Assembly (NCBI GenBank): GCA_031082125.1
Contig: JAVHLM010000012.1
Span: forward strand, 137,336 to 187,585
Direction: 5' to 3'
Length of the DNA stretch: 50,250 nucleotides
Origin: Candidatus Eremiobacterota bacterium
GTDB lineage: Bacteria; Vulcanimicrobiota; CADAWZ01; Ess09-12
The translations under genes were made by a program, and so were the position numbers. Under the pieces are notes generated by a model. The model was not told the origin of the DNA. It saw only the letters and a program-made list of their open reading frames with translations, and made no database searches. Within the stretch, counting starts at the first letter, position 1; each line of letters starts with the position of its first letter. Shown piece by piece: positions 3,686 to 33,330 of this stretch.

Positions 3686-3713
3686 ATTCTGCATATTTTT
3701 TTCGATTTGTCAA
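3686..3713 (-). promoter_or_regulatory. Candidate sigma-70 promoter for the degenerate receiver gene
   Basis: On the minus strand a perfect -35 TTGACA (3708-3713) is followed after 16 bases by CAGAAT (3686-3691), a weaker -10. It lies 50 bases before the receiver start, in the 164-base gap after the FHA gene. Confidence 0.4.
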
Positions 3714-19739: not shown

Positions 19740-21362
19740 TCAGCAATGTTCGAGAGAGTGTGAGCCTATTCCTCTCATGCACCGCGCCGCCTCCTCCTCC
19801 AGGGCGTCATAAAGAGTCCCCAGCATGCGGTCCTCATTGAGGTGGATCTCATAGGGAGGCACTTCACAGGCCCTGGTGGTCTTTGTGGTCATCTTCACAA
19901 GCCCATCCCCGCACTCAACAGAGAGGATGTTCTCCAGGAAGCTGTCCTTCCTGGTGATGATGCTCATTTCCAGGCAGAGCGTGTCAAGAGGGGTATAGCT
20001 CTCGCACACATGGGGGCGCGTGCCGTACATGGCGCAGAGGGCCGCTCCCCCCCGGGAGTCTTCCAGGAATATGCAGTCGGCCAGGCTGTGGATGAGGTCA
20101 AGCTTCGTGCCATCCTTCTTTGCGAGGAGGGCGTCAGCCCTGTTCCAGGAGAAAATGCCTGGATGAAGATATCTGTCACGGGCCTCCTCCTCGGTGATGC
20201 CGAGACGGCCTGCAATCTTGTCAATGTCGTGGGGGTTGATCTCCACCTTGAAACGCCGGCAGCACTCACCGCAGAGAAAGCACTTCAGGTCGGCATGCCA
20301 GAGGGCTTCCCACAGGGCGGGATCGGTCGATGCGGTGAGTCTTTCCATGAAAGCCTGCACCTTGTCCTGGAGCGCCTGATGGCTGCCGTATTTCATCAGA
20401 GCCCTTGCAGGCTGCCCCTTCAATGTACCCCTGGCCTCGAGCCTTTCGGGGTAAAGAGTTAATGCCGTGAAGGTGAGCCCGCCCTCATAAGGGCGGGCCT
20501 GCCGGGGGGTAGCCCTGGCAAGCTCCACGAGGCGGGCGAGCTTCTCGCGGATGATCACAAGGAGCCTCTCGTATTTTTTCTCCGGCGCCGCCATCGACGA
20601 GATTTTCCCGGCAAGCTCGCCGAGCTTTTCCCCGGTTACCTTGCCGCCTTCAAGGGCCAAGCGCCGTAACCCGGCAAGGTCGCCATCAAGATCATTTACG
20701 GCAACCTCGAATGAGGTATCGGGGATCTGGAAGGCGCCTGCCGCCTCCCGGAGCTCTGCCACCTGCGATTGCAGCAGAGAATCTTCATTCCATGGGAATT
20801 TTACAGACCTTCCAGAGCTCGAGGTGGCTTCAAGGCCATCGTTCCCTATCTCGATCATTGCAAGGTGAAAAATGAGCTTCCCCGTCTCCTTGGCGCAGCA
20901 GGCCATCGAGGGCTCAAGATCACGGCAGACCGAGGGCCTGGAGGGGTAAATCTCGCAGCGGTAAGCTTCGGTAGTCCCTTTGGAAAGAAAGGCGCACTGC
21001 CCCTCGATGCGCCTGAGCGTGCCGTCAGATTCACACCAGGTAAAGGCGCGGTCTATGAAGCGGTGGCGGAAGGCCTCCTCATCATCTTCATGGAAAAAAA
21101 GGCAGATATTCCTGATTTCCCCCGCAGTGACAGGCACGGGCCGTGACCTGCAGCAGTTGCCGCACCGGGTGCAGATGTCCCCGAAGAGCTCCTGCCTGAA
21201 GCGCTCCACGACATACTCGGTAATGGCTCTCACGGGGGTGCGGAGCGCCGGGTAGTCGGCATACAGGAAAGCTGCTTCCTCAAAGGTGCCGTCGCCGAGG
21301 GGAGAGGACACGTGGATCCTGTTGACGGTGCAGGCAAAGGATGTCTCTTCATTGATGAGCAT
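19740..21362 (-). CDS. Protein with two YkgJ-type CxxCxxCC metal-binding domains (paralogue 2)
   Basis: 540 residues, no signal peptide, cytoplasmic. Domain A has CTRCGNCC near residue 65 and closes with [11 protein letters not shown]. Domain B has CFLCGECC near 365 and closes with [11 protein letters not shown]. These two-part Cys signatures define the YkgJ family, thought to chelate zinc or iron or an Fe-S cluster; the biochemistry is little known. Between the two lies a helical stretch (about 200-340). The start is joined to the upstream paralogue by a TGATG overlap, with AAGGAGA upstream of it. The paralogues share order, length and motifs, so one arose by duplication. Next to a hybrid kinase, a metal- or redox-sensing role is plausible but inferred. 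Confidence 0.88.
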
Positions 21363-23107
21363 CAGTCTCTCCTTGCCGGCTTTTCTGCTGATGATCCGCC
21401 GCCTGCGTCATCGTCTCTGAGGACAAGGGCGGCGACTGCACCGTCAATCCGGCGGCATAGTTCCTGAATCTGCATATTCTCCGGGAGATAGATCTGCAGG
21501 GGGGCAAGCTTCCATCGGAGGATGTGGAGCGACGTGAGGGACAGGACCTTGCCCTTCACGGTAAGTGAGACGATGTTTCCCGCGTGGATATCTGGTCTCT
21601 CGCTGAGGCCCACCCTCTGGCAGGGCTTGTTGTAAGGCGAATAATTCGAGCATGTAGAGGGCCTTGCCTGATAAATGGAGCAATATTCCCTGACGCCCTG
21701 AGACTTCAGAAAAACGCAGGCAAAGCGCGGGGCGCATAGTTCTTCCGGGGGCCGGGGAGGCTCGACGGCCCCTTCCGTTTCACTCGATCTTTCGAAAACA
21801 TTCTCATACAGGGAGCTCCAGTAGTCAGACTTCCCCGAGGGATCGGCCTTCAAGAGCAGGCCGATGTGCTCGTTCCAGGAGTAAGGGCCTTTTTTGAGAT
21901 ATCTCTTCCATGTCTCCTCAAGGGAGATTTCGAGGTGGCAGGAGATACGCTCAATATCGTACGGGCTGATCTCCACCCCGTAGCAGCAGCAGCATTCGCC
22001 GCAGAGAAAGCACGTGGCATCGGTGTTCCAGAGGGACTCCTGGACGACAGGGTCCTGGGACTGCCCTATGAGTGCCACAAGCTGGCGCACCAGGGAAAGA
22101 AGGCCGGGGTTGTCGCGGTAGGAAAAGGAGCGGGGCACCTCTGTGCCGTTTACCGGGGTGAGCACCGAGAGGAACTCGGGATAGAGAGTGAGGCTCTCGA
22201 TGAGCCGGGGGGGCTCTTCCCCGCCGCGCTCCATTCTCGCCGTCTCCTCGGCGATGAAGGCTGTCATCCTGCTCACCTTGGCGAAGAGAAATCTGAGGGA
22301 CTCGCTCTCGGGCGGTGCCGCATTGCCCAGGGCCTCCATTTTTTCGGCAAGCTCCTCAAGCAGCACCGCGCACTCCACCGTCATTCCCTCCGTGAAGAAT
22401 ACATAACGGATCCTGTCAAGAACGCCGTTGGCGTCACCGAGCATCTTCCAGAGAGGGTCGGGCTCCTCATCAGGGATGCCCGAGAGAAGGTCTCTCAGTG
22501 CGTCAATGGCTTCAGTGAGCTCAAGCTCCAGGGAAGGATCCTTTTCGAAGGACTGCCCCTCCCTGCGGGTAATCTCCACTTTTCCCGCCAGGATCGTGAT
22601 CTTCCCGATGTGGGTGATGAGCTTCCCCGGCGATTTCAGGCATATCTCCATGGCGGGCTCGAGAGAGGCGCAGGCCAGGGGCTTTACGGAATGCACGGTG
22701 CAGGCAAAGGTTCCTGCCGGGTTCTGCTCCAGGAAGACACATCTTCCCTCATGGCGGCGCAGGACGCCGTCGCGGCTGTTCCACGTCAACGAGGGCTCTA
22801 TATATGAAGACCTGAACGGATCTTCGAAAAACTCTCCCCTGTGCTGGGAGATACGCTGAATATCCCTCGAGGTGACAAGGGGCATCTCCCCCATGCAGCA
22901 GCGTCCGCAGCGTCCGCAGATATCGGCGAAGATTTCCCTGCCGAAGCGGTCCGCCACAATGTTGACGACAGCCCTCACGGCATCTCTCAGCGCCGTATAT
23001 TCGATATAGCTGACCTGGCGCCGGCTCTGGCCCTCTCCCGGCGACGGGGTGACCACAGTGAGGCTGTCAACGGAGAGCTCAATGACGGTGTCCTGACGGA
23101 TATCCAT
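21362..23107 (-). CDS. Protein with two YkgJ-type CxxCxxCC metal-binding domains (paralogue 1)
   Basis: 581 residues from the Met at 23107, chosen because AGGAAGG lies five bases upstream; a longer frame to 23152 lacks this support. Domain A carries CGRCGRCC and CTVHSVKPLAC; domain B carries [10 protein letters not shown] and CSIYQARPSTC. Domain B has an extra Cys pair and a short insert (about 425-455) absent from the second paralogue. The N-terminal strands preceding domain A are alike in both (TAL/ALR motifs leading into VxxIVADRF or ITEYVVERF). It is the first gene of the seven-gene minus-strand operon. Cytoplasmic, as no signal peptide is seen. Enzyme or chelator cannot be decided here. 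Confidence 0.88.
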   Translation of the reverse strand: MDIRQDTVIELSVDSLTVVTPSPGEGQSRRQVSYIEYTALRDAVRAVVNIVADRFGREIFADICGRCGRCCMGEMPLVTSRDIQRISQHRGEFFEDPFRSSYIEPSLTWNSRDGVLRRHEGRCVFLEQNPAGTFACTVHSVKPLACASLEPAMEICLKSPGKLITHIGKITILAGKVEITRREGQSFEKDPSLELELTEAIDALRDLLSGIPDEEPDPLWKMLGDANGVLDRIRYVFFTEGMTVECAVLLEELAEKMEALGNAAPPESESLRFLFAKVSRMTAFIAEETARMERGGEEPPRLIESLTLYPEFLSVLTPVNGTEVPRSFSYRDNPGLLSLVRQLVALIGQSQDPVVQESLWNTDATCFLCGECCCCYGVEISPYDIERISCHLEISLEETWKRYLKKGPYSWNEHIGLLLKADPSGKSDYWSSLYENVFERSSETEGAVEPPRPPEELCAPRFACVFLKSQGVREYCSIYQARPSTCSNYSPYNKPCQRVGLSERPDIHAGNIVSLTVKGKVLSLTSLHILRWKLAPLQIYLPENMQIQELCRRIDGAVAALVLRDDDAGGGSSAEKPARRD

Positions 23108-23188
23108 GAAGCCTTCCTGCCGCAGGGGTCCGGACCTGAGGCCCATTATCACATCTCTCTGGATTCACCGGTGGCGGGGAATAATCCT

Positions 23189-23225: not shown

Positions 23226-23334
23226 AAGCTCTTTTTATCACAGGCCCCGGCAGCATCGACGGAGGGGCTTTCATCTCCTGACAATGACTTCATGGAGGAA
23301 AGGGAGCCGCGCTTCGGGCTTTTCCAAATACCTG

Positions 23335-23363
23335 TTGCATAGGTGGCCGATTTGTTGTATTAT
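23335..23363 (+). promoter_or_regulatory. Candidate promoter of the 23398 gene
   Basis: TTGCAT (23335-23340), 17-base spacer, TATTAT (23358-23363). Transcription would begin near 23370, which supports the gene start at 23398 rather than an earlier Met. Confidence 0.6.
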
Positions 23364-23397
23364 TATGATGTACTCAATGGGGAAGGGGACCACTGCC

Positions 23398-24159
23398 ATG
23401 ATAAATCCAGCCTTTCACCGCATCACCTCTGCACCAGACTCCATGCCGCAGCCCGGGGACGCCCAGGCAGGCCCCGCGCAGGACGTGGCCGCCAGGATGG
23501 CCCGGGAGACCGCCGGGGAGCACCCCGGAGTGAAGCGGCTTCACCAGGAGGTCGTGGAGCTCACCGGGAAGAAGGAAGCCCTCTATCAGGTCCTCACCCT
23601 ATCACGCGATGAGCGCCTAGAGATTCTCAAGAGCAGCAATCCCACCCTTTATGATGAGATCGGCAAGTCAGTTTATAATAAGCTCAATTCCACGGCCTTC
23701 AGGATATGCGCGGGAACCTGGCTCGCCGGCGCCGCCGTGGCCATAGGCACCGTGACGGCGGCGGTGATGGGCGCAGCCATATCGACTCCCCTTTCTCTCT
23801 CCTTCCCTGCCTTCCTGGGACTGGGAACGGGTGTCTCGAGGCTCTATCTCCATCTCGCCGAGAAGAAAAAAGGCCCGGCGATGAGGGACGAGCTCGCTAT
23901 TAAATGCTTTGAATACCAGAAGGGCGAGCTGGAGCAGGCCATAGAGAAAAAGAAGGCTCAGGAAGAGGAGCTGGTGAAAAAGGTCGCCTCCGACAACCAG
24001 GCCCTTGTCGATGCCGCTTCAGGAAGCGGCGCTGGTGGCGAGGCAATCAAGGATGAAGACGGATTTGTCGATATAGGTGGCGTGAAGCTGAAGGTGAACA
24101 AAAGCATGGACCTCATCACCGGCCCACCGCTCAAGGCTCTGCATCCCTGGCTCTCATGA
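23398..24159 (+). CDS. Hypothetical membrane protein with coiled-coil tail
   Basis: 253 residues from the Met at 23398, preceded by GGGGAAGGGG; the frame extends upstream to 23284 but that would start before the predicted promoter. The N-terminus is polar (to about 55), followed by a helical region (VVELTGKKEALYQVLTL), two adjoining Ala/Gly-rich hydrophobic segments (about 102-150, like a membrane hairpin), then a charged coiled coil (EKKKAQEEELVKKV) and an acidic Gly-rich end. No family recognised. It overlaps the next gene by ATGA. Confidence 0.75.
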   Translation: MINPAFHRITSAPDSMPQPGDAQAGPAQDVAARMARETAGEHPGVKRLHQEVVELTGKKEALYQVLTLSRDERLEILKSSNPTLYDEIGKSVYNKLNSTAFRICAGTWLAGAAVAIGTVTAAVMGAAISTPLSLSFPAFLGLGTGVSRLYLHLAEKKKGPAMRDELAIKCFEYQKGELEQAIEKKKAQEEELVKKVASDNQALVDAASGSGAGGEAIKDEDGFVDIGGVKLKVNKSMDLITGPPLKALHPWLS

Positions 24160-24470: not shown

Positions 24471-24563
24471 GTATCACTGATTGATGGTAGAAATTGCCTG
24501 TATGAAAAAGGCCGTGCCATGCATTAAAAAAAGGGTCTCTCCTCCCGGGACCGGGGGGAAGCC

Positions 24564-27500
24564 ATGAGCAGCGGGCCTCCCGCAGGAGGCGGGGATACGG
24601 GACATGGTGTACTCTATGGAGCCGTCGATACAAGGATGACCGCCTCAGGCTATGAGGAGCTCCGGTTCCTCTGGGACGAGTTCAAGCGCCTCAAGGTGAA
24701 GGATCTCTCCAATGAGCGCATTGAAAAGCTCCAGAGGGCCCATAAGAACCTCCTCGTTGACCATCCCGCCCTTCTCTACGGCGTTGCGCTGCTTATAGGG
24801 TTTATCGCCTTCTGCCTCTCGCATTTTGCGCCAGGTGTGCCTTTCTCACTCTTTCTCCTCTGCACAGGCTCACCCGATCCCTTCAGAGATGCTTTCATCC
24901 CGTCGGCCGACCTGTGGTTTGACCTCTCCACAGGGCTTGGCATTGCCTTCATTGCCTGTGTCGCGATAATCGCCCTCCATCGCACGGTGCTTTTTCCATG
25001 GCGCATGATCTCGGCGCTTGATTTCGGCTTCATGGTGACCTTGGAGAACTACCGCAGGTGGTTTGAAGGCTGCGGCAGGACAGAGAAAACCCTCGGCACG
25101 CTGAAAAGCCTGGGAATCAATGAATACTGGGATAACCCCTCATACTGCGTCTTTTACGAGGAGGGCGATGACCTTGCCGTCCTTGAGCCCGGCCCCTCCC
25201 TGGTGCAGAAAGCTCTCAGGGACGTGCTGGGGTTCAAGAAGCAGAAAAGGTTTCACCCGGGGAGGTACATAGAGAGCCTCAAGGACAAAAAAGAATCGGT
25301 GACTGAATTTATCGATTCACACCAGGAAAAGATTGAACTCAACAAGAAGGGCGGGCTGCCTGCCGGGGAAGGAATCGAGCTTCTGAAACATTTGAGAGAC
25401 TGCTTCATGAAAGCCGGGTCCGAAGGTTTCACTTACTTGAGCGCTATCATATCAGCCCTGGAGAACGATGACTCGGTACCGGAGGGCTTTATCAAGGCAA
25501 GCGCCTGGGAAAGGGATCCCTGGAAGGATCTCACGAGGCAGAAGGACTTTTACTCCTCGGCCTCGCTGAGAACGGGGTCGCTGAAGGATACCCTGCAGCG
25601 CAGGACCAAGGGGATGCTGGGCCCCTTCGGCTACATGCGCAACAAATCAATTTCGGCGCTGGATTTCAGCACAAAGGAGGGGAGGAAGGCCCGGGCGCGC
25701 CTTGCTGCATGCCTATACCGCGATGCCGCCGGCGGGGAACAGGCCCTTCTTTTCGTGGACGGCGTCGAGGGAAGGGCAAGCGTGAAGCCTTCGCTCATCA
25801 AGAAGGCCATAGAGGATTATGCCCTGCGATGCGGCTTCAGGACCGTATGCTACTACAGGTACCCCCTCAACAAGGTGCCCGAGAGGTTCGTGCGCCATGT
25901 CGCGGGGTGCGGCCACCTCCTGGAGGAGATCACCCTCTCCTATGCAGATTCCTCAACACGCGAATACCTTGATGCCTTCGGCCTCCCCTTCGAGCCTTAC
26001 GAGTATGCCTTCCCTCGAGGCAAGGTTCTGGGATATGCCGTCGATCTTGACGACCAGGTGCAGAGAGAGAAAAAAGTGCCGTCAAGGGCAGGGCTTTTTG
26101 CAGGGGAGTTTCTCAGGAAAGGCCTCCTCCATGCACTCACCTATGCCGCCATAGCCTTCGGTGCCTTCATGATGTACAGAAGCGGGCTCACCGAGCCGCT
26201 TTATCTTTACCTTGCAGTGATGGCCGCCCTTCTTGCCTATGATGCCGTATACCACAGAAGAGCCCTGCGGGTGAAGGATGACAAGAGCGCATCTATGCCG
26301 ATGCCTGAGTTCATCACGGAAATCCTGGAAAAAATCAATCAGAATCCCCTGGCGGCAAAGATGGGATATGGCCCCAGGGCTCTCGCAAAGGCAGGGGAAC
26401 TCCTGAAGATCTTCCCTTCCCCTCGTCGCGCTCTCCGCTATTTCTTCGAGGAAGTGCTCTACAACGTATCAATAAAGGATTCAGACCTGGAGAACATGCT
26501 CAAGTTCCTCCCGCCGCTCCAGGGAAAGCGGAGAAAGGCCCTCGACGAGGCCTTCTCCCTTTTCTGGAGGAAGAGAGACTGCGGGGCGCTTGAGAGGGCG
26601 CTCTCGGAGGAAAAGGAAGCAAGGGAAGCTCTCAAGCAGGAAGTGGTACGCAGGGCGAGGATCTTGCAGAAAATGGCAAAGATAAAGGATATTGACAGCG
26701 GCACGATAGGGTCAATTCTCAGGGTCTCGCGGGCAATGAGGCTTGACGTTGAGCAGGCCGTGGAAATGACCCTGATAAACACAAGGATCCTGAAAGGCCT
26801 CTGGAAAACGCCGCGGCCTCTCGCCACGCTCTTTGTCCCCCTTCTCTATCTCCTCCTGTTCCCGTCTCTGATAAGCCTGATAGAGAGCGTTTCCGGGGCT
26901 CCCCTGAGCATCCCCTGGTGCCTCATCATCTTCGCCCTCCCCTCCATAGGGGCCTCCTATTTCATCACCACGCGCCTCCCCGTGGCACCGGGGATTCTCA
27001 CCTACCGAAGGACAGGAGAGTACATGGGAAGAGTGTTCCGGAAAGACTTCCAGGTTTCCGCCGTGCAGCAGGCAATGGCCCGTTCTGGAATAGACACGGG
27101 GGAGTTCGGGCAGGGGAGGGTTTACGAGAACAGAGAAAAGGGTGTCAGGATAGTCATCCATGACAAGAGGACCCTCGAGGGGGCCGTGGGCTTTCTCACC
27201 TCCGGCGAGGAGGTCGGCAACTGTATTGCGCTCAACCACGCCATTTCATGGACATTGCCCCCCCTTCTTTGCGACGATTCAGTCATGCTGGGCGATATCC
27301 ATTACAGGGGCTCACAGCAGAAATACCAGCAGAGGGGACAGGTATGGATGATTGCCGCCCTCGAGGGGGACACCCCCGTCCTCACCGTGAACAGCTTTGA
27401 GTTCAATAACGAGGGGGCAAAACACCTTGATGAGCTCATGCCCGAAGCCGTCAAGGCCGTCCTGGACGTGGCGCGGAAGGGCCGTTTCAGCAGAGTCTAC

Positions 27501-27836
27501 GCGGGAATTACGGAGTTTGCAAGAGACTACCTGGACGGGAATTTCAGGCAGGCCAGGGCGGCAGGGCCGGTAAAAAAGATCCACACTGCCGACCTGGGCT
27601 TCAGCTACTATTTCGACGCCTACGCGCTCAGAATCAATTTCGCGCGGCGGCCCGCGGCGGGAGATTACGTGTACCTCGAGCGGCGCGATTTGGGGAAAAG
27701 GCTCTACGCGCTCTCCTTCGCGCTCGTGGAGCTTTTAAGCGGAAACCGTGCAAAATGCAGGGCATTCCTGGACACGGTGAAAAACGCCCATAACATGTGG
27801 GAGCTCTCTCCGCCGGGGAATGATGCGGAAGCATAG
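24564..27836 (+). CDS. Unrecognised 1090-residue membrane protein
   Basis: I recognise no family over the whole length. Membrane helices lie near 70-88, 122-139, 522-540, 548-566, 753-776 and 782-804, forming three hairpins that separate large soluble regions. The middle region (about 380-500) has an ALLFVDGVEG strand, a helix (LIKKAIEDYALRCGF) and a TVCYYRYP strand. The last region (about 880-1070) has GEEVGNCIALNHAI, then AALEGDTPVLTVNSFEF, a helix and RFSRVYAGI. The two regions share the order strand with Glu, helix, strand and might be duplicated domains of one fold. A helical, charged stretch lies between (about 590-745). The start follows a GGGGGG purine run. The two small genes upstream may belong with it; between them lie twin hairpins. 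Confidence 0.85.
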   Translation: MSSGPPAGGGDTGHGVLYGAVDTRMTASGYEELRFLWDEFKRLKVKDLSNERIEKLQRAHKNLLVDHPALLYGVALLIGFIAFCLSHFAPGVPFSLFLLCTGSPDPFRDAFIPSADLWFDLSTGLGIAFIACVAIIALHRTVLFPWRMISALDFGFMVTLENYRRWFEGCGRTEKTLGTLKSLGINEYWDNPSYCVFYEEGDDLAVLEPGPSLVQKALRDVLGFKKQKRFHPGRYIESLKDKKESVTEFIDSHQEKIELNKKGGLPAGEGIELLKHLRDCFMKAGSEGFTYLSAIISALENDDSVPEGFIKASAWERDPWKDLTRQKDFYSSASLRTGSLKDTLQRRTKGMLGPFGYMRNKSISALDFSTKEGRKARARLAACLYRDAAGGEQALLFVDGVEGRASVKPSLIKKAIEDYALRCGFRTVCYYRYPLNKVPERFVRHVAGCGHLLEEITLSYADSSTREYLDAFGLPFEPYEYAFPRGKVLGYAVDLDDQVQREKKVPSRAGLFAGEFLRKGLLHALTYAAIAFGAFMMYRSGLTEPLYLYLAVMAALLAYDAVYHRRALRVKDDKSASMPMPEFITEILEKINQNPLAAKMGYGPRALAKAGELLKIFPSPRRALRYFFEEVLYNVSIKDSDLENMLKFLPPLQGKRRKALDEAFSLFWRKRDCGALERALSEEKEAREALKQEVVRRARILQKMAKIKDIDSGTIGSILRVSRAMRLDVEQAVEMTLINTRILKGLWKTPRPLATLFVPLLYLLLFPSLISLIESVSGAPLSIPWCLIIFALPSIGASYFITTRLPVAPGILTYRRTGEYMGRVFRKDFQVSAVQQAMARSGIDTGEFGQGRVYENREKGVRIVIHDKRTLEGAVGFLTSGEEVGNCIALNHAISWTLPPLLCDDSVMLGDIHYRGSQQKYQQRGQVWMIAALEGDTPVLTVNSFEFNNEGAKHLDELMPEAVKAVLDVARKGRFSRVYAGITEFARDYLDGNFRQARAAGPVKKIHTADLGFSYYFDAYALRINFARRPAAGDYVYLERRDLGKRLYALSFALVELLSGNRAKCRAFLDTVKNAHNMWELSPPGNDAEA

Positions 27837-27843
27837 ATGCCCC

Positions 27844-30800
27844 TCATGCCCCTTCGGCGGCCATCCTGCCGTGTCTTGCTCTCTCAGAGAGAACATGCCT
27901 TTTCCTCTGGTAGAGGAAAGAGGTTATCAGGAGCAGGACCCCCATGATGATGGTGGTCGTCACCCTGTTGTATGCATTGAGCACTGCCATGTCCACGAAA
28001 CCAATCTTGAGCATTGACGCGCAGAGTAGCAGGAGACCGAACTGCCTGAACACCTTGAGCTCCATCATCACGCCGTAAGAGATAAAGGCAAAGGCAGAGA
28101 CGCTCCAGAAAACCGACAGGACTACCTGGAAACTGTCGAGCATGCCGTAAAGCTTGTAAAGCACGAAGGTGAACTGGAAGCAGAAGATGAAAAGCGCCAG
28201 TGTCACAATGAGGTTGCGCACGTCGTAAACGCGCCATACCATGAGGGCCGCCATGGAGTATACCGCGACGAGGACCGCTATGAAAGCGACTTCCTGGAGC
28301 TCAATATGCCCGGAAGCGGCTATGGTCATCCTTCCCCCTGCGATCATGAAGTTGGCGTCAAGCACGATGGACTTCAGAAAAGTGACGAAAAAAATGACAA
28401 GGGCAAGGGTGGTGTAGTTCCTCGAGCGCGAATCCCCGCCCGAATAGCTGCGCAGGGACTGGAGCGCCATGGGGGCCATTACCGAGCTGAAGGTATCGGT
28501 GCCTCCTTTTTTCATGGAATAGATGAGAAGGGCCATTGCAATGAGAGCCCAGGCTATGGTGGAGAGGGCGCCGGTGGATACGGCAAAAAAGCTCTTCATC
28601 ACTATGGCAATGACCATATAAGGGATGGCTCCTGTCATCCATCTCTCGTGGCAGGGAATTTTATCCTCGCGGGCCATCAGCATCCAATATGAAAGGGCAA
28701 ATATGCCTGCAATACAAATGAGGGCTCCGAAGTGACCGCCGGGGAGGATATGCGGCGCAGCACCCACGCAGAAGGAGAGCGGCCGGCCGGCAACGAGCGC
28801 AAGGGATGTTATGGCCATCCCTGCAATGGCGATCCTGTGGAGGGATATGAGAATATCTTGATATTTAAGGCTCAAAGCGGCCAGCAGGGCAAGGGTGACG
28901 GCAGCGGAGAGCGACGGGGGTACATATACCAGGACGGCGCAGTAAAATGCCGCGCAGGCCATTACCACGAGGCTTCGCATTATCATGCCGGCCGTATCGC
29001 CGCCTTCAGCCTTCCGGGCATACATCAGCGCGAAGCTCGCGAGGAATATGAGCGATGAGGCGAGGTAGAGAGCAAAGCCCGACAATGGCTCCAGCATCAC
29101 GCTGTCCCTCACCGGCATCGTGTAGAAAAGGATCACTGCCGTGAAGGCTGCTGCCATGGCGCCATATCCCCTGAAGAGCCAGGAATATTCTCTGAAGGAG
29201 CCGAGGCTCACCGCAAAGGCGATGAGAGAAGCAAGCCCGGAAAGCAGGGGAAGCGCCAGGGGAGAAGGAGCATAACGGATAATTATGAAGCCAGAGATGG
29301 CCATCGCGGTGAGGAGCACAAGGCCTTCGGCGGCCTGGTCCTCATCCTCGATTAAGTCACGCTTTGCATAGAGCATTCGGAAATAAAGGAAATAAGCTGC
29401 CGCTGACGCGATGAACACTGAGAGCCTCGTGACGGCAAGATCCGCACTCCCCTCCATGGAAGGTATGACAAGGAAAAGCTGCATCGCGTCAAGGAGCAGC
29501 GCAAAGTATGAGAACCTCCTGAGAAGCTTTCTGTAGTCCCTGCTCCCAATCCTGAAGCTTGCGGCCATAAGCGCGAAGGCCTCGATACCCCAGAGGCCTG
29601 TCACAAGTGAAAACCATGCAGTGCCCTTCGACAGGAAGGAAACAAAGCTTATCGATGCGGTGAGGAAAAGGAGGCCCATCACGGCGTTGTTCTCCACTAT
29701 TTCAGCGAAGCCGTGCGACTCCTCCCTGAGGCCATGGGCCTTCACCGCGAGGGCAAGATGGATTCCTGCCATGCCAAGGTAGATGAGAATCGGCCAAGGC
29801 GCAGCCATCCTCATCAGCGTGAAGCATGAGGCCACAGCAAAGGCTATGGGGTTCACATAGGAGATGACAAGGTGGTAATCGCTGCTGGTTTTCCGCACGA
29901 AGTGGAGTATGTTGTTTGAAAAGAGATAGATAAGGTAGATGGCGGTCAGGAAGCACAGCGTGATGAGGGGATCGCATGAGCGGAAAAAATGAAGGTAGAG
30001 GCCATAGGTGGCAAGAAATGAAAGGGTGAGGTAGGAGTCCCATTTCTTGTAGTATGCCACGTAGGCCACGCCCAGGTTTATCGCCACCAGGTAGAGGGCA
30101 ATGAGGCCGGGGCCCGTGAAACTGAACCTCATGAGGAAGGGCGCCAGGAACACGGTGACAAGCATCGTGGCGCCGATAAATTTTGAGTCATAACGGAAAA
30201 TTGCAAGCCCTGACGAGGCCACGACAGTGAATATGGCTGCGAAGAGAAGGGGTGTGCTGATGAGGCCGTAACGGAAATAGGAGGCGCAGACGGCAAAGAA
30301 GATGATGGTAAAGCCTCCCGCGACGAGAGGGCATGCAAATTTCTCCATGTTCCTGAGGTACAGGTGATTGCCACCAGCTATCATGACAAGCCCCAGCGCA
30401 ACAGCGGCACCGCACTGGAGTACGCCGCCCGCAAGGCACGTTGAGAGAGTGACTGTGAGGTACGTGGCTATTCCTATCAGAAGAAAGAGAATGCCGAAGA
30501 AGTTCAGGTATGATCCCGCGAAGGCCATCTCCCACCGGGGAGCCTTTTCCGTGTATTCCTTGCTCTGCGATGAGGGCGGGGGGTATACTGCGCTCATGGC
30601 GGATGGCTTTTCCTTCGGCAGGGCCGGTGCATTCACCACTGATCCACCGGCAGGGAGTTCCCTCGGAGCCGGAGCCCTCTCTTCCAGAAATCCATGCGGG
30701 ATGACCGCAGGGCTGGATCCACTGCCTCCAGCCCCCCTCTTCCCGGGCCTTGCCTCGCGAAGCTTTGCCGGCTCCGCCCGCTTCTCCAGGCTTTTCTTCA

Positions 30801-30912
30801 TAGTGGCAAGGGCGCCTTCAATCCTGTCAATCCGCTCCTTTTCCTCATAGACGCGCCCGAGGGCAGTGCATGCCAAGAAGAACACTATCACGACGGCAAT
30901 CCAGATAATCAT
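27844..30912 (-). CDS. DUF2339-family multi-spanning membrane protein
   Basis: 1022 residues. An N-terminal membrane helix (2-19) is followed by a coiled coil (EEKERIDRIEGALATMKKSLEKR), a Pro/Ala-rich linker (about 50-125) and then more than 20 predicted membrane helices to the end. The layout and the start of the membrane part (FAGSYLNFFGILFLLIGIATYL) match DUF2339 proteins, whose function is unknown. The C-terminal cytoplasmic tail is basic. The ribosome site GGGAGGAG is strong. Its stop lies only seven bases from the convergent stop of the 1090-residue gene. No enzyme motif is visible. Confidence 0.85.
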   Translation of the reverse strand: MIIWIAVVIVFFLACTALGRVYEEKERIDRIEGALATMKKSLEKRAEPAKLREARPGKRGAGGSGSSPAVIPHGFLEERAPAPRELPAGGSVVNAPALPKEKPSAMSAVYPPPSSQSKEYTEKAPRWEMAFAGSYLNFFGILFLLIGIATYLTVTLSTCLAGGVLQCGAAVALGLVMIAGGNHLYLRNMEKFACPLVAGGFTIIFFAVCASYFRYGLISTPLLFAAIFTVVASSGLAIFRYDSKFIGATMLVTVFLAPFLMRFSFTGPGLIALYLVAINLGVAYVAYYKKWDSYLTLSFLATYGLYLHFFRSCDPLITLCFLTAIYLIYLFSNNILHFVRKTSSDYHLVISYVNPIAFAVASCFTLMRMAAPWPILIYLGMAGIHLALAVKAHGLREESHGFAEIVENNAVMGLLFLTASISFVSFLSKGTAWFSLVTGLWGIEAFALMAASFRIGSRDYRKLLRRFSYFALLLDAMQLFLVIPSMEGSADLAVTRLSVFIASAAAYFLYFRMLYAKRDLIEDEDQAAEGLVLLTAMAISGFIIIRYAPSPLALPLLSGLASLIAFAVSLGSFREYSWLFRGYGAMAAAFTAVILFYTMPVRDSVMLEPLSGFALYLASSLIFLASFALMYARKAEGGDTAGMIMRSLVVMACAAFYCAVLVYVPPSLSAAVTLALLAALSLKYQDILISLHRIAIAGMAITSLALVAGRPLSFCVGAAPHILPGGHFGALICIAGIFALSYWMLMAREDKIPCHERWMTGAIPYMVIAIVMKSFFAVSTGALSTIAWALIAMALLIYSMKKGGTDTFSSVMAPMALQSLRSYSGGDSRSRNYTTLALVIFFVTFLKSIVLDANFMIAGGRMTIAASGHIELQEVAFIAVLVAVYSMAALMVWRVYDVRNLIVTLALFIFCFQFTFVLYKLYGMLDSFQVVLSVFWSVSAFAFISYGVMMELKVFRQFGLLLLCASMLKIGFVDMAVLNAYNRVTTTIIMGVLLLITSFLYQRKRHVLSERARHGRMAAEGA

Positions 30913-32793: not shown

Positions 32794-33330
32794 ATGACAA
32801 TGATAGGTAACGTGGGTTCCGCGGCGCCGCAGCCGAAAAGTCCGGTCTATTCGCACATCAGCGGCAGAATAGGTGAAAACCAGGCAAACCTGACCCTGAA
32901 CCAGCAGAATGACCGCGTGGACATCTCCGGTTCCGTAGGCGTCAACAGGGTCAATGTCCACGAAACCATAAGCGGCAGCTCCGGAAACATTTCGGGAAGC
33001 GTGTGGGGCTCTTCAGGCTATAAGAACGTGAGCCTCTGGGTGAATAATTTCGGCGGCAGCAAAAGCATATCGGGCTCCGTGGGAAATGAGCATGTGAACG
33101 TGCGCCAGTCCGAGACGGGAAATCAGATCTCCATGAGCGGGTGGGTCGGGACAAAATATGTGAATATCTACGGGAGCCATAACTCGGGAAGCGCAAGCTT
33201 CAGCGGCACCGTGGGAAGCGGCTCAAACAGCAGCGTCTGGCTTCACGCCTACGAGAGCCCCCAGGGACAGAACGTGAACTATGAAGGACTCATTCCTGCC
33301 CTGCTGTGCACCGAAAGGGACGCTCACTGA
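32794..33330 (+). CDS. Repeat protein with ISGSVG-type beta repeats
   Basis: 178 residues. The sequence is built from short repeats alternating SGxVG and VNV/VNI: YSHISGRIG, VDISGSVGVNRVNVHE, GNISGSVWGSSGYKNVSLWV, KSISGSVGNEHVNVRQ, ISMSGWVGTKYVNIYG, ASFSGTVGSGSNSSVWLH. Repeats of about 21-25 residues rich in Ser/Gly/Asn suggest a flat beta structure or beta-solenoid. No signal peptide is present, so it is cytoplasmic or exported by another route. Two starts are possible: Met at 32794, or at 32800 with better spacing to AAAGGGGGG. No family recognised. Confidence 0.8.
   Translation: MTMIGNVGSAAPQPKSPVYSHISGRIGENQANLTLNQQNDRVDISGSVGVNRVNVHETISGSSGNISGSVWGSSGYKNVSLWVNNFGGSKSISGSVGNEHVNVRQSETGNQISMSGWVGTKYVNIYGSHNSGSASFSGTVGSGSNSSVWLHAYESPQGQNVNYEGLIPALLCTERDAH

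Follow-up and report, generated by a model that had tools for sequence, protein, structure and literature searches.

What kind of protein is encoded at 24564-27836 on the forward strand of the window, the whole 50,250-nucleotide stretch of Candidatus Eremiobacterota DNA analysed here? A sequence-only reading had described it as an unrecognized membrane protein of 1,090 residues in which three membrane hairpins separate soluble parts, and had suggested that it may be an enzyme of a new family. Searches of the protein against Pfam, NCBIfam, PHROGs and PDB sequences gave no family match, in agreement with that description, and the family is therefore considered to be new. We give a probability of about 0.5 to the explanation that it is a putative acyl- or aminoacyl-transferase, anchored in the membrane at the inner leaflet and belonging to a new, divergent GNAT family with an atypical C-terminal donor site. 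The explanations weighed below overlap with one another, and their likelihoods are not intended to sum to one. The reading frame and its main segments are as follows.

24553..24560, + strand: SD-like GGGGGGAA (GGGGGGA), directly 5' of the ATG, read in the sequence
24564..27836, + strand: ORF of 1,090 residues, the stand-alone copy of the module, with a full-length homologue in locus L016 (41-42% identity)
24747..25013, + strand: membrane hairpin 1, residues about 62-150, from hydropathy
24999..26063, + strand: middle soluble domain, residues 146-500 (alignment A4; match in genome G231 with E 2.7e-170)
26115..26255, + strand: membrane hairpin 2, residues 518-564, from hydropathy and positive-inside flanks
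26304..26813, + strand: linker between hairpins 2 and 3, residues 581-750, helix-rich by sequence, aligned with L016 and missing in genome G199
26820..26975, + strand: membrane hairpin 3, residues 753-804, from hydropathy
26976..27803, + strand: C-terminal domain, residues 805-1080, the most conserved part (alignments A3 and A5)

The host genome (7.4 Mb in 69 contigs, 97.6% complete) contains a single copy of the gene. When 84,980 species genomes were scanned with the C-terminal core, a single locus emerged, L016 (JACQQN010000023.1), from a Candidatus Omnitrophota MAG. Its ORF runs into the contig end, is at least 1,328 residues long and can be aligned over the full length of the window protein at 41-42% identity. 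The genome concerned (G149) falls outside the genomes of the window's phylum, and the relationship therefore crosses phyla. Since this homologue keeps the frame intact, the gene is taken to be real; hydropathy and the conserved frame likewise bear out the proposed membrane protein. A contaminating contig, or an ORF without coding function, is very improbable. No relative of the protein was found in the other 148 of the 149 genomes of its own phylum, which would suit either of these explanations, but its GC3 (0.71) and tetranucleotide profile agree with those of its own contig and genome and disagree with those of Omnitrophota, and conservation of the frame across ~1,070 residues in L016 argues against a non-coding ORF. 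Mis-binning of the 187-kb contig was rejected, as its composition agrees with that of four other contigs of the same genome. The GC3 of the L016 homologue is 0.44; as the window gene carries the signature of its own genome, any transfer between the two lineages must be old.

The family was found in three of 384 Omnitrophota genomes (G149, G199 and G231) and in one genome of the window's phylum, and is therefore rare. In G199 it is part of an ORF 15,709 codons long (contig C68, 139639-186768), where the equivalents of L016-query residues 3-259 are joined straight to those of residues 753-1086 in frame. This natural deletion takes out the linker, hairpin 2 and the greater part of the middle domain, and thus tells which part of the module is retained. 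G231 has the middle domain without the C-terminal domain, in an ORF that runs off the contig on either side; directly after the middle domain come two domains with GNAT-like sequences (PF00583, E 9.4e-13). Profile searches of one Omnitrophota order (47 genomes), the class that contains it (49 genomes), the whole Omnitrophota phylum and the window's phylum gave no further true member, and no relatives were found in phages, plasmids or viral contigs. Several candidates were discarded: the G308 match (E 6e-4) was recognized by eye as GGDEF/AAA-like, G197 and G024 do not share the domain, and weak matches to the C-terminal domain within the window's phylum were taken as chance, the four loci that were opened being antisense frames or unrelated genes.

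Hydropathy recovered the three membrane hairpins between soluble parts, at residues ~68-143, 520-564 and 755-804, and every motif quoted in the sequence-only reading, including its Cys/Asn/His segment, is present in the protein. The positive-inside rule holds for hairpins 2 and 3, both in the window protein and in those Omnitrophota relatives that carry them, with positive charges on the domain-side flanks and few within the short loops, while the charge pattern of hairpin 1 is less clear-cut. This distribution of charges suggests that the soluble parts are located on the cytoplasmic face of the membrane. The Omnitrophota copies have a signal-like N-terminal segment, and the side of the membrane may differ there.

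The C-terminal domain is 50-53% identical to two Omnitrophota copies (alignments A3 and A5). Structure prediction and a fold search had been proposed for residues 880-1070; AlphaFold2 was run on residues 838-1081 together with two relatives (the three-sequence alignment A5), and the order of strands and helices was recorded from the sequence ahead of the fold search. The core that emerged is

27126..27653, + strand: GNAT-fold core, residues 855-1030 (AlphaFold2, Foldseek and viral library).

The three-sequence model has a pLDDT of 52.6 and a pTM of 0.56, with residues 876-903 and 981-1042 below 50. Its elements are, in order, β1 (861-866), α1 (868-879), β2 (907-914), β3 (922-934), β4 (937-947), α3 (955-972), β5 (977-980) and α4 (984-993). 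The best 50 Foldseek matches of this model in the PDB are all of GNAT type, 25 of them at E<=0.001 (top E 2.9e-5), and include the RimI-type structure 7n1l, the AAC(3) structures 5u08 and 9mgu and SpNatD (4ua3); in agreement with the PDB search, most of the named viral-library matches are GNATs as well. The domain resembles the GNAT superfamily in the order β1-α1-(α2)-β2-β3-β4-α3-β5-α4, with a Glu on β4 and a Tyr on α4, and the recurrent order described in the sequence-only reading (strand with Glu, helix, aromatic strand) corresponds to GNAT β4-α3-β5. A model from the single sequence was too poor to use (pLDDT 39.6 for the C-terminal part) and gave no significant Foldseek match in the PDB. 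None of the Pfam GNAT models matched the 1,090-residue protein at E<=1, and in a comparison of the C-terminal core with a GNAT profile built mainly from the host genome's own GNATs two of 150 shuffles scored as well. Thus, the C-terminal soluble part is predicted, at moderate model confidence, to have a GNAT fold, present where sequence libraries detect nothing. Of the proposed enzyme of a new family, the novelty stands, as no sequence family matches, but this part belongs to a known fold and lacks the canonical CoA loop.

The middle domain probably contains a second, more divergent GNAT copy, as judged from the order of its elements and from profile comparison with the C-terminal core:

25617..26057, + strand: putative GNAT-like core of the middle domain, residues 352-498, with no CoA loop.

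The two cores are 21% identical over 117 columns. Their profiles score 20.9 and 22.6 in the two directions, compared with a mean of ~13 for shuffled profiles; two of 150 shuffled profiles in one direction and none of 150 in the other match the observed score, and the alignment is collinear. The earlier suggestion that two soluble parts share an order of strands and helices is thus above chance in a shuffle-calibrated comparison. This comparison needed both trimming to the cores and the calibration; with default settings the whole middle and C-terminal domains aligned over 20 columns, and the sequence signal between them is therefore weak. Against the GNAT profile drawn mainly from the host's own GNATs, the middle core scored weakly (five of 150 shuffles were as good) and less distinctly than the C-terminal core. 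A second copy is therefore likely but unproven: the core profiles are collinear but the score of the middle core against GNATs is weaker. The protein would differ from other GNATs in that it probably carries two copies, with membrane hairpins and a linker between them, within a single membrane protein of 1,090 residues.

In canonical GNATs, the segment R/Q-x-x-G-x-G/A after β4 binds the CoA pyrophosphate, and, as in Gcn5 and AANAT, a β4 Glu is often the base and an α4 Tyr the acid. The corresponding and neighbouring candidate residues of the window protein are

27222..27224, + strand: C887 of GEEVGNCIALNHAI, invariant in three sequences, in a low-confidence part of the model
27399..27401, + strand: E946 on β4 (strand 937-947), invariant, at the general-base position of Gcn5-type GNATs (putative role)
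27405..27422, + strand: loop N948-N949-E950-G951-A952-K953 in place of R/Q-x-x-G-x-G/A, retaining the first Gly alone
27528..27530, + strand: Y989 on α4 (helix 984-993), invariant, at the usual position of the GNAT general-acid Tyr (putative role).

E946, G951 and Y989, together with C887, H954 and H1007, do not vary among the three known C-terminal domains, across phyla. The pyrophosphate loop reads NNEGAK, NNEGAN and NNDGST in these domains, so that only the first Gly of the consensus is kept, and the middle domain has RASVKP at this position, with no Gly. Hence the protein, which differs from the GNAT superfamily both in this degenerate or absent loop and in having no sequence-family match, is classed as a GNAT-fold relative and not as a canonical acetyl-CoA GNAT.

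With the loop degenerate in one domain and absent from the other, either domain may be catalytically dead. The pair would then be a GNAT-like membrane scaffold or ligand sensor, for example one that binds CoA, tRNA or a protein without chemistry, and the position of the module among unrelated domains within a giant protein in Omnitrophota would accord with such a role. The region of β4 and α4 is strongly conserved across two phyla (50-53% identity), however, with E946 and Y989 included, and the C-terminal domain is retained in G199 where the middle part is deleted; a dead scaffold consequently appears possible but somewhat unlikely. The transferase is favoured because E946 and Y989 are invariant, one Gly of the loop is kept and hairpins 2 and 3 follow the positive-inside rule.

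The invariance of C887, H954 and H1007 might instead point to a cysteine-dependent enzyme (transglutaminase-, peptidase- or arylamine-acetyltransferase-like) that uses C887 with H954 or H1007, and GNCIALNHAISWTLPPLL resembles a Cys-headed helix. The structure search, however, led to GNATs and to no papain- or transglutaminase-like Cys-His fold, the Cys stretch lies in a low-confidence part of the model, and invariance among three sequences is weak proof. We consider such an enzyme improbable.

In the favoured transferase, two GNAT-fold domains would lie on the cytoplasmic face, separated by a membrane hairpin, the linker region and a second hairpin, and the three hairpins would hold both domains against the inner leaflet. 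The C-terminal domain is the likely catalytic domain. An acyl or aminoacyl donor could be held in the cleft between β4 and β5 through the NNEGAK loop instead of R/Q-x-x-G-x-G/A, with E946 as general base and Y989 as general acid, and the group would be moved to an amine or hydroxyl of an acceptor that is bound to the membrane or lies close to it. The middle domain, having lost its donor loop, may have a regulatory or substrate-binding role. The cassette is common to the window's lineage and Omnitrophota, probably through an old transfer, and in Omnitrophota it forms part of giant multi-enzyme proteins.

MprF and the Fem enzymes are tandem GNAT folds with aminoacyl-tRNA as the donor. A more specific form of the favoured explanation is a tandem-GNAT, aminoacyl-tRNA-dependent transferase with chemistry of this type, which would attach amino acids to a lipid of the membrane or to a precursor of the cell wall. 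The likeness to MprF (lysyl-PG synthase) and Fem lies in two probable GNAT domains that would not use a CoA loop, in one membrane protein at the inner face. The Pfam search at E<=1, however, linked the window protein to neither group, and the protein's membrane topology and domain spacing are different, with hairpins and a linker between the two domains rather than adjacency in sequence. This specific chemistry is accordingly judged unlikely.

Omnitrophota commonly have giant ORFs of more than 20 kb, in which few domains are annotated and whose functions are obscure (PMC10066038); giant genes are also discussed in PMC12057145. Homologous modules with recognizable edges occur within the 15,709-residue ORF of G199 and the open-ended ORF of L016. 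In these proteins the module is bracketed by R[AS]E[LV]R peptides: the G199 module (residues 3709-4304) by those at 3694 and 4319, and the L016 module (residues 145-1230) by those at 139 and 1240, with another at the edge of hairpin 2 (722). The slightly broader pattern R[AS]E[LVM]R was counted 15 times in the G199 giant ORF, between residues 741 and 15407, compared with 0.13 in shuffles (about a hundred-fold over chance), and four times in L016 (residues 98, 139, 722 and 1240), compared with 0.01. The window copy differs in being free-standing, in another phylum and without bracketing peptides, the pattern being absent from its sequence. A DNA repeat was rejected as the source of R[AS]E[LV]R, as its codons vary freely, and it is therefore conserved as a peptide. 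These peptides are possible processing or linker signals of the Omnitrophota giant proteins; a literature search for RAELR in the context of giant proteins found no paper. Near residues 2740, 3043 and 8233 of the G199 giant ORF, several R[AS]EVR peptides precede a related stretch (N-E-N-N-A, SSI and in part KGPV), suggesting a recurring insert.

Elsewhere in the G199 giant ORF there are matches to an HD domain, a HAD hydrolase, a nucleotidyltransferase, methyltransferases, TPR, HTH, an APH-type kinase, glycosyltransferase 2 and a metallophosphatase, a combination that would be unusual in a surface protein. In this ORF (L022-L025, L028), domains known from ordinary enzymes of the cell interior occur together with many hydrophobic stretches. 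A tentative and rather doubtful reading is that the Omnitrophota giant ORFs encode polyproteins or strings of modules, with R[AS]E[LVM]R marking the limits of the units and perhaps serving as a cleavage site, and that the window protein would be one such unit in free-standing form, a new membrane-anchored tandem-GNAT enzyme without the usual acetyl-CoA loop. With the window protein, an unannotated stretch of a giant protein gains a compact, free-standing homologue from another phylum, for which edges, a fold and candidate active-site residues can be given, and one module of a giant protein thereby becomes testable.

Immediately 5' of the gene, 23284-24159 (+) encodes a family-less protein of 291 residues with a hydrophobic hairpin, and a DUF2339 protein at 27844-30912 is convergent with it; these flanking genes give no hint of an operon for a known pathway. 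The ORF at 32794-33330 encodes 178 residues with repeated SGSVG/NV-type stretches and has no family match. Farther neighbours include a hybrid histidine kinase, a SpoIIE-type regulator, an S41 peptidase, others and two CxxCxxCC proteins, an adjacent pair at 19740-23152 with two CxxCxxCC (PF03692) stretches in each.
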